Translations under genes and position numbers: made by a program | Notes under the pieces: generated by a model | What the model saw: the letters and a program-made list of their open reading frames with translations, nothing else | The model's database searches: none | What the model was told of the DNA's origin: nothing | From: a virus | IMG/VR virus record: IMGVR_UViG_3300047388_000109 | Location: 1 to 61,194 of that record | Length of the DNA: 61,194 nucleotides | Reading direction: 5' to 3' (one strand) | Part shown: positions 10,976 through 14,382 of the stretch, one piece after another | How positions within the stretch are numbered: position 1 is the stretch's first letter | Layout of the letters: every line of letters starts with the position of its first letter

Positions 10976-11060
10976 GGTTCAGTAAACCACTATGGAGCTG
11001 GTTCGGCCTGTAAAGCCGACGTCTCTGACTCGCAGAGTTCGATTCTCTGCTGGACCACCA
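10976..11060 (+). tRNA. tRNA-Tyr (GTA)
   Basis: Type II tRNA. Acceptor GGTTCAG pairs with CTGGACC (one wobble), anticodon stem TCGGC/GCCGA with loop CTGTAAA, variable arm GTC-tct-GAC, T arm CAGAG/CTCTG, encoded ACCA end. Confidence 0.85.
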
Positions 11061-11166
11061 TCAACGGGGGCGCAACGTCGCTCCCTCCTCCCGACGTGAC
11101 CGCAAGGTCTGCGTCCCCACCCAACATTTCCGCTACCTGCATTGGCGTGGACGGAGAGAGGGAAGT

Positions 11167-11571
11167 ATGGCAGTGACCTTGAAGAACGGCGACCGCCTGA
11201 AGCTGGAGCGGTGCGGCCCGATCCCCGAGGCGCGGTTCAACGGGGGCTTCAAGCTGACCCGGGGCCGCTCGAAGGACGGCAAGTTCAAGTCGACCTACTG
11301 CTACATCGACACGCGCGAGCTGCGCGCCTCGAAGGGCAAGGAGCAGTGGACCCCGTTGGCGGTCTTCCGCTGGTACAAGGGGGTCTTGCAGAGCATGCTG
11401 GACTTCGGTGTGACGCATGGCTGGAAGAAGTTCGCCGAGCAGCGCGAGGGCGTGCCTGTGTCAGAAAAACCACAGGAGCCTGCGGTGCGCGGTCAAAAAC
11501 GCTTGACAGGTTCCAAGAAGGAGAGCAGAATCGCTCCCTTGCAGTTGAGCCACAGCACGGATGCCGCGTAA
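11167..11571 (+). CDS. hypothetical protein within the tRNA array
   Basis: 134 residues. Basic, with a probable beta-rich core (MAVTLKNGDRLKLERCGPI; FKLTRGRSKDGKFKSTYCYI; WTPLAVFRWYKGVLQSML). It starts at ATG 11167, preceded by GAGAGAGGGAAGT, and is the only sizeable protein gene between the Tyr and Leu tRNAs. No family recognised; its position invites a tRNA-related or regulatory role but nothing in the sequence shows it. Confidence 0.65.
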   Translation: MAVTLKNGDRLKLERCGPIPEARFNGGFKLTRGRSKDGKFKSTYCYIDTRELRASKGKEQWTPLAVFRWYKGVLQSMLDFGVTHGWKKFAEQREGVPVSEKPQEPAVRGQKRLTGSKKESRIAPLQLSHSTDAA

Positions 11572-11653
11572 GCCAAAGGGAAAAGTGCTATGCACCGGAG
11601 CCCAACCGGTGTCGCGGACGCAGAGCGGTGGCATGTTCTTTTAACAATTCGGG

Positions 11654-11715
11654 CATCATCGAAGCGTCTTCCTGCACGGCGCGCCGGGCCGGGGTGGGCG
11701 GATGCTTCGATGATG
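11654..11715 (+). repeat. perfect 12-bp inverted repeat, long hairpin
   Basis: CATCATCGAAGC (11654-11665) and GCTTCGATGATG (11704-11715) pair perfectly across a 38-base GC-rich loop. The hairpin ends nine bases before the Ala tRNA and may be a processing or attenuation element for the array transcript. Confidence 0.6.
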
Positions 11716-11724
11716 TCAGAACAT

Positions 11725-11800
11725 GGGGTTGTAGCTCAATTGGGAGAGCACCTGCCTTGCAAGCAGACGGTTGTCGGTTCGATGCCGACCTTCTCCACCA
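11725..11800 (+). tRNA. tRNA-Ala (TGC)
   Basis: Anticodon loop CTTGCAA, D arm GCTC/GAGC, T arm GTCGG-TTCGATG-CCGAC, encoded CCA. The acceptor stem (GGGGTTG with CTTCTCC) has two T/T mismatches, which is unusual. Confidence 0.8.
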
Positions 11801-11809
11801 GTATTGTAT

Positions 11810-11894
11810 TGCGGGTTAGCGAGTAGTGGTACCTCAGGAGGCTCATAACCTCCCGCGAACGCCGACGCAGGTTCGATTCCTGCACCCGCAACCA
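11810..11894 (+). tRNA. tRNA-Met (CAT)
   Basis: Acceptor TGCGGGT/ACCCGCA, anticodon stem GGAGG/CCTCC with loop CTCATAA, T arm GCAGG/CCTGC, encoded ACCA. The 13-base variable region (11854-11866) is longer than the usual five bases for CAT tRNAs. CAT could serve Met, or Ile if C34 is modified to lysidine. Confidence 0.75.
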
Positions 11895-11900
11895 GAGCAA

Positions 11901-11966
11901 GGCCCCGGATAGCTCCGGGGTAGCCGGGTAGCTACCGGACGCGCCCCTTGGAGGGGCACTGGGCCA
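11901..11966 (+). other. tRNA-like degenerate element
   Basis: 66 bases, with GGCCC/GGGCC ends, an arm CCGG-GTAGCTA-CCGG whose seven-base loop has T33 and would read AGC, and an arm GCCCC-TTGGA-GGGGC in the T-arm position. It lacks TTC and CCA. Probably a decayed tRNA. Confidence 0.3.
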
Positions 11967-12008
11967 AAGTGGAACTGGGTTTTGCGACCCCCACAGGCCA
12001 AGTACACA

Positions 12009-12100
12009 GGAAGGTCCACCCGAGGGTTGGCGACGGGCGCTGTCTCGAAAACAGTTGGGCTTCGATGCCGTGGGAGTTCGATCCTACCCACCTTCCGCCA
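12009..12100 (+). tRNA. tRNA-Ser (CGA)
   Basis: Type II, 92 bases. Acceptor GGAAGGT/ACCTTCC, anticodon loop CTCGAAA in stem GCTGT/ACAGT, long variable arm, TTCGATC T loop, G73 and CCA. Confidence 0.9.
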
Positions 12101-12105
12101 GTTAT

Positions 12106-12182
12106 TGTCGTCAAGCACATACGGCATGTGCAATGGCTTGATAAGCCATCGGCAGGAGGTTCGAATCCTCTGGCGACAACCA
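12106..12182 (+). tRNA. tRNA-Ile (GAT)
   Basis: Acceptor TGTCGTC/GGCGACA, D arm GCAC/GTGC, anticodon stem ATGGC/GCCAT with loop TTGATAA, T loop TTCGAAT, encoded ACCA. Confidence 0.9.
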
Positions 12183-12247
12183 GTACACACGAAGAGCCGG
12201 TCGACCGGCACGGGGCGGACTGATCATCCGCTCCGTTTACTTACAAC

Positions 12248-12323
12248 GGGCCCGCATGTTCCGTAGCGGCGACAGCGCCTCCAAAGCGTGGTGTGGGGAG
12301 TGCAACTCTCTCCGGGCTTGCCA
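12248..12323 (+). tRNA. tRNA-Trp (CCA)
   Basis: Acceptor GGGCCCG/CGGGCTT (two G-T pairs), anticodon loop CTCCAAA, T arm GGGAG/CTCTC, encoded GCCA end. The T loop is TGCAACT instead of TTCRANN. Confidence 0.8.
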
Positions 12324-12389
12324 GTACAATGTGGGGCGGCTCGCAAGAGCAGCGCGGGGTTGTGAGACTCTACGCCCCGCGCCTTATTC

Positions 12390-12465
12390 GTCTCGTGATG
12401 CAAATGGTACAGCATCCAGTCCTTCAAACTGGCGTACGTGGGTTCGATTCCCCGACGGGACACCA
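12390..12465 (+). tRNA. tRNA-Glu (TTC), C at position 33
   Basis: Acceptor GTCTCGT/ACGGGAC, D stem TGC/GCA, anticodon stem CCAGT/ACTGG with loop CCTTCAA, TTCGATT T loop, ACCA end. Position 33, almost always T, is C. The T stem pairs fully only with one bulged T. Confidence 0.75.
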
Positions 12466-12470
12466 ACAAC

Positions 12471-13376: not shown

Positions 13377-13446
13377 GCAGCACGAAGTCTCGTGTGCAAG
13401 CTGCGCGCCTCGTGCGTGCAAGGCAGTCACGCAGTGTGCTGCTGCA
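13377..13446 (+). other. possible decayed tRNA
   Basis: Seven-pair outer stem GCAGCAC/GTGCTGC followed by T and GCA, plus an inner arm GCGCG-CCTCGTG-CGTGC with a seven-base loop. There is no T arm with TTC. It lies in the longest tRNA-free gap of the array (13300-13454), where I see nothing else certain. Confidence 0.25.
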
Positions 13447-13454
13447 TGAACATT

Positions 13455-13530
13455 GCATCTCCAGCTGACCAAGTGACAGCGGCGGTCTGAAAAACCGCAG
13501 AGCGTGGCGCGATACCACGGTGATGCACCA
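13455..13530 (+). tRNA. tRNA-Phe (GAA)
   Basis: Acceptor GCATCTC/GTGATGC (one mismatch), anticodon stem GCGGT/ACCGC with loop CTGAAAA, T arm CGTGG/CCACG, ACCA end. The T loop CGCGATA is non-canonical. Confidence 0.85.
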
Positions 13531-13534
13531 GACA

Positions 13535-13622
13535 GGTAGGTTGGCAGAGAGGCCGATTGCAGCGCTTTGCTAAAGCGCCAACCGTAACAGGTTCAGTGGT
13601 TCGACTCCACTACCTACCGCCA
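13535..13622 (+). tRNA. tRNA-Ser (GCT)
   Basis: Type II, 88 bases. Acceptor GGTAGGT/ACCTACC, anticodon loop TTGCTAA in stem GCGCT/AGCGC, long variable arm, T loop TTCGACT, G73 CCA. Confidence 0.9.
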
Positions 13623-13682
13623 GCTCCACTACCCAAGGCCACCCGAAAAGATGGTGTGGATCAAGAGCCTTGGAAGATCAAT

Positions 13683-13759
13683 TCCGAGTGAGCAGCCAAG
13701 GTGTTTGCATCTGACTGTTAATCAGACCTCGCGTGGTTCGATCCCACGACTCGGAGCCA
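13683..13759 (+). tRNA. tRNA-Asn (GTT)
   Basis: Acceptor TCCGAGT/ACTCGGA, anticodon stem TCTGA/TCAGA with loop CTGTTAA, T arm CGTGG/CCACG, G73 CCA. The 60 bases before it hold an inverted repeat CCAAGGC/GCCTTGG but no other gene. Confidence 0.9.
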
Positions 13760-13831
13760 GCATCAACGTCCGGTGTGAATCGCGAGCGACGCGCGCAGAT
13801 GCTCGTGGTCGGCTCCTCCGGGCACCTACGC

Positions 13832-13906
13832 AGTCCCTTAGCTCAGAGGCAGAGCGGTCTCCTTACAAGTGACGGGTCGGGGTTTCGAAATCCTCAGGGA
13901 CTACCA
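13832..13906 (+). tRNA. tRNA-Val (TAC)
   Basis: Acceptor AGTCCCT/AGGGACT, D arm GCTC/AGAGC-type, anticodon stem GTCTC/GTGAC (one mismatch) with loop CTTACAA, T loop TTCGAAA, encoded ACCA. Confidence 0.88.
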
Positions 13907-13912
13907 ATCAGC

Positions 13913-14006
13913 TGTCCGTAGCACTGGGTGCGGGCCGGCCTTATACACCGGCGAGAGCGGGCGGACGGCCTGCGACGGCACGGATCGTTACCGTGGCGGA
14001 CTACCA
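13913..14006 (+). pseudogene. degenerate type II tRNA-like gene
   Basis: 94 bases with acceptor TGTCCGT/GCGGACT (one mismatch), arm GCCGG/CCGGC with a nine-base loop CCTTATACA, a very long variable region, T arm CACGG-ATCGTTA-CCGTG and ACCA end. The anticodon cannot be read safely (TAT or ATA), and the D arm is only a three-base-loop hairpin. Probably non-functional or highly divergent. Confidence 0.45.
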
Positions 14007-14011
14007 ACAAC

Positions 14012-14085
14012 GGGTTCATAGCAAAGTGCCTATGCCCTCGGCTCTTACCCGAGTGACCTTGGTTAAAATCCAAGTGAACCCACCA
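14012..14085 (+). tRNA. tRNA-Lys (CTT)
   Basis: Acceptor GGGTTCA/TGAACCC, anticodon stem CTCGG/CCGAG with loop CTCTTAC, T arm CTTGG/CCAAG, ACCA end. The T loop TTAAAAT lacks C56. Confidence 0.85.
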
Positions 14086-14131
14086 ACAGAAGGCTCTAAT
14101 GGCCTGTGCCATCGCACCAGAACAAAACATC

Positions 14132-14207
14132 GCGGCATTAGCTCAATCGGAAGAGCGGCGGACTGTCTATCCGCAGGCAACCGGATCGAAACCGGTATGT
14201 CGCGCCA
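14132..14207 (+). tRNA. tRNA-Asp (GTC)
   Basis: Acceptor GCGGCAT/ATGTCGC, D arm GCTC/GAGC, anticodon stem GCGGA/TCCGC with loop CTGTCTA, T arm ACCGG/CCGGT with loop ATCGAAA, GCCA end. Confidence 0.88.
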
Positions 14208-14215
14208 AGATCAAT

Positions 14216-14293
14216 CAGGGATTAGCTCAGCCCGGCCAGAGTATTCGCTTTGGAAGCGAAAAGCCGAAGGTTCAAATCCTTCATCCCTGACCA
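14216..14293 (+). tRNA. tRNA-Pro (TGG)
   Basis: Acceptor CAGGGAT/ATCCCTG, anticodon stem TTCGC/GCGAA with loop TTTGGAA, T loop TTCAAAT, ACCA end. Confidence 0.9.
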
Positions 14294-14298
14294 TCAAT

Positions 14299-14382
14299 GC
14301 CCCATTGGTGAAATGGCAGACACACTGCGCTTAGAACGCAGCGCCTTACGGCATCGCGGTTCGAGTCCGTGATGGGGTACCA
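14299..14382 (+). tRNA. tRNA-Leu (TAG)
   Basis: Type II, 84 bases. Acceptor GCCCCAT/ATGGGGT, anticodon stem CTGCG/CGCAG with loop CTTAGAA, long variable arm, T loop TTCGAGT, ACCA end. Last tRNA of the array. Confidence 0.9.

Follow-up and report, generated by a model that had tools for sequence, protein, structure and literature searches.

We describe here a compact array of 24 transfer RNA (tRNA) genes at positions 10976–14382 of IMGVR_UViG_3300047388_000109, the IMG/VR record of a small, uncultivated virus of bacteria (the window below is the whole stretch of 61,194 bases that was analysed), in which all 20 amino acid isotypes are represented once calls made at a relaxed threshold are counted. 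All of the genes lie on the plus strand, within 3.4 kb of the 61-kb record, and the 3' CCA is encoded in 24 of 24. The array is a genuine set of phage tRNA genes, and the 20-isotype claim depends on a single weak tRNA-Trp, which is its weakest link. The function that we favour first, and to which we give an even chance, is that of a back-up pool, in which the array would provide every amino acid with at least one tRNA when host tRNAs are lost.

With default settings ARAGORN called 20 genes of 17 isotypes, all on the plus strand, and made no call for the Glu, Phe and Trp isotypes. Relaxed settings added Ser(CGA) (score 96.7), Glu(UUC) (95.3), Phe(GAA) (95.4) and Trp(CCA) (86.2) at the same sites at which the initial annotation, made from the letters alone, had placed them. 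Its list of 24 tRNAs is thereby matched gene for gene, the default and relaxed calls of ARAGORN, a program that it had proposed, together give 24 genes and 20 isotypes, and its statement that every amino acid is covered holds, for Trp by way of a low score together with the shuffle control given below; the encoded CCA, which it had ascribed to nearly all of the genes, is found in every one. Genes, isotypes, CCA ends and anticodons are matters of direct observation.

The score background was taken from 1000 dinucleotide-preserving shuffles of the array, on which relaxed ARAGORN made 18,258 calls in total; 11 of these scored 95 or more, with a maximum of 101.4. A combined filter (score of at least 86, plus strand, CCA, U33 and a purine at position 37) was passed by three calls across the 1000 shuffles as against 21 calls in the real array, Trp included. 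Relaxed ARAGORN made 430 calls in the window outside the array, of which 21 reached 86, none reached 95 and none passed the combined filter. The default program also skips tRNAs that are annotated elsewhere, those for Gly and Trp in phage T5 and the one for Tyr in phage Sf14, and its misses in the array are therefore weak counter-evidence. It is because of this background from shuffles and window, and of the default misses in known phages, that we accept 24 genes and 20 isotypes. The Rfam tRNA model RF00005, with a cut-off of 29 bits, was reached by 19 of the 24, counting a tRNA if it reached the cut-off in at least one of several runs: 15 did so in one run, and Ser(GCU), Gln, Thr and Phe in others. 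The score of tRNA-His (28.0) lies slightly below the cut-off, and for Tyr, Asn, Ser(CGA) and Trp the runs yielded no match to RF00005, Ser(CGA) being seen in Rfam solely as a sub-threshold match to tRNA-Sec (27.1 bits).

The array opens with tRNA-Tyr(GUA), which has a long variable region (10976–11060; ARAGORN 104.3; here and below the ARAGORN score is followed by Rfam bits where there was a match), and continues after a gap with Ala(UGC) (11725–11800; 112.5, 56.4 bits) and a tRNA with anticodon CAU, called Met (11810–11894; 112.0, 44.9 bits). The latter is 85 nucleotides long with a variable region of 12 nucleotides and is possibly something other than a standard elongator tRNA-Met; initiator, elongator and Ile2 types all come into consideration. 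Next are Ser(CGA) (12009–12100), Ile(GAU) (12106–12182; 109.8, 51 bits) and the weak Trp(CCA) (12248–12323), which has G73 and the T-loop TGCAACT. The two genes that follow depart from the usual U33: Glu(UUC) (12390–12465; 32.2 bits) has C33 in the loop CCUUCAA, and Arg(UCU) (12471–12546; 107.0, 40.9 bits) has C33 in the loop CCUCUAA, together with U73. Behind them stand Gln(UUG) (12586–12660; 109.0, 38.4 bits), Arg(CCG) (12665–12739; 121.5, 52 bits), Arg(ACG) (12745–12821; 116.8, 47.9 bits), Lys(UUU) (12825–12901; 121.6, 62 bits), Thr(UGU) (12907–12983; 101.1, 31 bits), Gly(UCC) (12992–13066; 116.3, 52.7 bits) and Cys(GCA) (13072–13145; 109.9, 51.5 bits). Bacterial tRNA-His normally requires G at position -1; in the tRNA-His(GUG) of the array (13225–13299; 113.6), which has C73, the sequence reads A instead of G before position 1. 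Phe(GAA) (13455–13530; 36.7 bits) has an unusual T-loop, CGCGATA, and is followed by Ser(GCU) (13535–13622; 122.3, 46.8 bits), Asn(GUU) (13683–13759; 109.1) and Val(UAC) (13832–13906; 108.6, 50.3 bits). The array closes with Lys(CUU) (14012–14085; 111.2, 57 bits), Asp(GUC) (14132–14207; 114.3, 57 bits), Pro(UGG) (14216–14293; 120.5, 65.9 bits) and Leu(UAG) (14299–14382; 117.4, 50.3 bits).

Two further plus-strand segments, outside the 24, resemble parts of tRNAs. The first, at 13146–13224, is a probable tRNA remnant with a perfect T-arm (13159–13175; similar to the transfer-messenger RNA model at 11.6 bits) and a D-arm-like hairpin directly after it; no complete tRNA was found there, and the segment folds no better than its shuffles. 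A circularly permuted tRNA was considered for this site and rejected, neither acceptor strand being present between T-arm and D-arm, and with both strands absent a remnant is the simpler reading. The second, at 13913–14006, is a tRNA-like remnant that has a CCA end and a hairpin resembling a T-arm but a poorly formed anticodon loop (relaxed ARAGORN 88.5), to which no Rfam tRNA match was obtained. Strong structures also occur between the genes: a very strong hairpin with a long, near-perfect stem lies at 11648–11719, shortly 5' of tRNA-Ala (fold z of -3.7 for 11571–11720), and is possibly a processing or regulatory element, and two neighbouring tight hairpins lie at 12196–12236, between tRNA-Ile and tRNA-Trp (fold z of -4.1 for 12183–12247).

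The decoding capacity of so short a set turns on the wobble position. Six large codon boxes (Ala, Gly, Pro, Thr, Val and Leu-CUN) have one tRNA each, and in all six that tRNA has U34. Under plain wobble the 24 tRNAs would read 43 of the 61 codons, amounting to 72.7% of phage codons; if superwobble applies, by which a single U34 tRNA would read a whole box, the figures rise to 55 of 61 and 96.8%, so that the short set could cover nearly all codons. Superwobble has been documented in organelles and reduced genomes (PMC3499367). The codons left uncovered even then are ATA, TCA, TCC, TCT, TTA and TTG. For comparison we scanned a viral collection with a tRNA-Glu(UUC) pattern, which gave at least 120 stretches and, within the 120 listed, 1145 tRNAs called by ARAGORN; being selected by that pattern, the survey is enriched for tRNA carriers and is no census. 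Surveyed tRNAs share the preference for U34 (Ala 32/33, Pro 51/54, Val 32/33, Leu-CUN 33/39, Thr 43/60 and Gly 37/58), and the choice of U34 in the window therefore follows a general viral habit.

For the back-up pool that we favour, we infer that the cluster would be transcribed during infection, that host enzymes would trim the transcript and host synthetases charge the tRNAs, and that the pool would then serve the phage once host tRNAs had been depleted, whether by the phage take-over itself or by defences that cut tRNA. Coverage that extends to every amino acid agrees better with such a general replacement than with the repair of a few rare codons, and an independent study of Shigella phage Sf14 prefers, for its 26 tRNAs, a role in late translation that draws on the tRNAs of the phage itself (PMC12482277). 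Several observations weigh on the other side. The set is not fully self-sufficient, since Leu-UUR, Ile-AUA and most of Ser-UCN remain uncovered. The proteins scanned, which exclude small open reading frames (ORFs), gave no match to a tRNA repair or charging family. Some members look worn, namely Trp, Phe in its T-loop, Glu and Arg(UCU) with C33, and His without G-1, and the two remnants suggest decay in the array; given these signs in His, Phe, Trp and the CAU tRNA together with the remnants, some of the 24 are possibly not fully active. Finally, cognate codons show a mild enrichment, which codon compensation predicts as well. A bolder form of the same idea, doubtful though worth stating, is that a podovirus-like phage of 61 kb, from a family in which no other sampled record exceeds three tRNAs, has assembled an almost complete minimal decoding set of organelle style, with one U34 tRNA for each single-tRNA box, and would translate almost wholly on its own tRNAs after destruction of those of the host.

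The initial annotation had offered strong codon mismatch as one motive for the array. If the tRNAs chiefly boosted supply for codons used more by the phage than by its host, enrichment of their cognate codons would follow, and we do find it, both against Pseudothauera (p 0.023; a stand-in that may not be the true host, with ORFs called mechanically) and against related phages (p 0.003). AGA, at 7.0% as against 1.6%, and ACA, at 16.9% as against 5.0%, are cases in point, and the same tendency is described for Xanthomonas phage XacN1 in the part of that report consulted (PMC5852040). The enrichment is nevertheless mild, with Pseudothauera as a substitute for the host, and strong mismatch stands as a conjecture; the guanine-plus-cytosine (GC) content of third codon positions, moreover, is nearly equal in phage and stand-in (0.761 against 0.763), and a spread over 20 isotypes exceeds what a few rare codons would need. 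Codon compensation as the chief function is rather unlikely.

The other motive that had been proposed, resistance to cleavage of tRNA, appeals to changes in the anticodon loop that would let phage tRNAs withstand specific anticodon nucleases of the host, as has been proposed for mycobacteriophages facing tRNA-cutting defences (PMC10264068, in the part seen). The replacement of the usual U33 by C33 in Glu(UUC) and Arg(UCU) is what such an account would point to, and Glu(UUC) without U33 recurs in other phages, with 3 of 112 in the survey; ARAGORN calls it in Moby (L174, C33) and in Erythrobacter phage vB_EliS-L02 (L176, G33). Loss of U33 does not, however, exceed the viral background, being seen in 22 of the 1139 surveyed tRNAs that remain of the 1145 once six without a parsable three-base anticodon are set aside, and at that rate two or more such tRNAs among 24, as in the array, have a probability of 0.078; figures from a subset of 80 among the 120 survey loci agree. 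A similar test ruled out nuclease escape for Sf14 (PMC12482277). We regard nuclease evasion as unlikely, and reject the notion that loss of U33 is a special trait of tRNA-Glu, since 3/112 is not distinctive beside 22/1139. Recoding of stop codons was a separate candidate, suggested by the C33 tRNAs, which would read stops if their anticodons were shifted by one base, and by 28 chosen genes without a TAG stop; it was rejected on a wider ORF list in which 4 of 42 end in TAG (2/40, 10/46 and 8/36 in relatives) and on a frame of 2136 codons without an internal stop.

That the array is decaying or neutral, gathered by recombination with few tRNAs that matter, is very improbable: the two remnants at 13146–13224 and 13913–14006, the several non-canonical loops and the low score of Trp speak for it, but 20 of 24 genes pass ARAGORN by default, 19 of 24 reach the Rfam cut-off, none of the 24 has lost its CCA, and at least one gene per amino acid would be unlikely to outlast decay by chance.

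Each of 29 viral records, selected because they have related genes for capsid or portal, gives zero to three tRNA matches, and 5 of the 29 have a tRNA over the cut-off. Five longer related records share a head module with the window (terminase, portal and capsid at 41–70% identity), and in these five the genes around the array have no match. The nearest relatives (L076, L077 and L001), with capsid proteins at 79–83% identity, are pieces of 8.7–11.3 kb without tRNAs and, as short fragments, are uninformative on the array. When all 24 tRNAs and the intervening gaps were compared by blast with the collected loci, no related array came to light; over full length tRNA-Ala matched best, at 88% to Erythrobacter phage L02. 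With few tRNAs in related records and no similar array among the loci compared, the array was seemingly acquired within this lineage. A full set appears unusual for this capsid and terminase family, though the closest relatives are too short to judge. A terminase search of the viral_contigs collection gave no relatives, and searches with portal, capsid and tail proteins did find them.

The initial annotation had called a full set in a genome of this type uncommon, which holds in part, seemingly so for the capsid and terminase family and less so for viruses at large. Arrays of this kind are already known, and full sets across viruses are not very unusual: among the 120 listed stretches three contain 20 isotypes in 27–29 genes, the record being 69 kb long in one case, and 19 isotypes are reached in at least five others. 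A 20-isotype set may be uncommon in podoviruses. The podoviruses in a preprint table have at most nine tRNAs (PMC13015707, in the part seen), and a narrow literature search found no podovirus reported to cover all 20 amino acids with its tRNAs.

The closest parallel in organization is phage T5 (AY543070), in which all 20 amino acids are annotated on one strand by 24 tRNAs, as we count them, and one pseudogene, with tRNA-like RNAs between genes and with 20 of the 24 anticodons of the window also present. T5 differs in being a 122-kb siphovirus of E. coli whose array extends over ~13 kb, its tRNAs being interspersed with many small ORFs, and in having an annotated initiator tRNA and Ile2 tRNA; no DNA related to the window array was detected in the T5 array by blast. 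The Felix O1-like phage Sf14 (Ounavirinae) resembles the window in its density, with 26 tRNAs in ~4.6 kb of an 87.6-kb genome, and in making the same choice of U34 in most boxes, but it is a myovirus with a larger genome and, according to the part of its description consulted, covers 19 amino acids (PMC12482277). XacN1 covers all 20, but it is a jumbo phage of 384 kb whose terminal repeats hold 56 tRNA genes, and it has tRNA-processing enzymes (PMC5852040). The three uncultivated viruses with full sets in our survey (L238, L252 and L275) each have 27–29 tRNAs of 20 isotypes; they differ in that GC content in their array stretches is 41–43% and their records are 69, 32 and 168 kb long, respectively, and none has a match to the window portal protein. 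The window thus adds a compact full tRNA set in a capsid and terminase family seemingly otherwise without such sets, and the survey figures are useful alone, as a frequency of U33 loss and as a measure of the U34 preference in viral four-codon boxes that a minimal superwobble set would need.

The carrier genome had been described as podovirus-type, which is plausible from its packaging and head genes but not proven. Its terminase (TerL) is distantly similar, at ~25% identity, to those of SIO1 and VpV262, which we take to be podoviruses; a 627-residue protein of the tail region is 36% identical to a protein of F116; and the window proteins scanned had no match to tape-measure or sheath families. 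The portal protein is 37% identical to that of Vibrio phage 431E45.1 and matches portal and head-tail adaptor families. The record has no terminal repeat. The frame of 2136 codons mentioned above (54785–61194) runs off its right end and probably encodes a giant virion protein; minus-strand ORFs in 54893–61162 are spurious, being antisense to this single long plus-strand frame.

Related capsid genes gave seven matches, in Pseudothauera rhizosphaerae, Aromatoleum anaerobium, a metagenomic Zoogloea assembly and, for the rest, metagenome assemblies of other groups; from the contigs of the three named genera a betaproteobacterial host is likely. When the array tRNAs were compared by blast with part of the Pseudothauera genome (the loci of 30 of 53 host tRNA matches and 20 stretches of 20 kb), full-length alignments were obtained only for Ala (84%) and Asp (80%).

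Directly 3' of the array, at 14412–14440, is a promoter-like sequence (TTGACT-17-GATAAT), and beyond it, at 14554–15120, a gene for a DNA modification protein of the Mom family (Pfam PF25680, 99.9 bits; PHROG 1384). By its family this gene is likely to act against restriction, and it adjoins an array that possibly acts against the loss of tRNA. Upstream of the array, a Q-like antitermination protein is encoded at 3835–4416 (PHROG 127, E 5e-11), near an endolysin gene at 4906–5676, and the product of 5972–6628 matches a family of HslV-type peptidases (PHROG 1040, E 2.5e-15).

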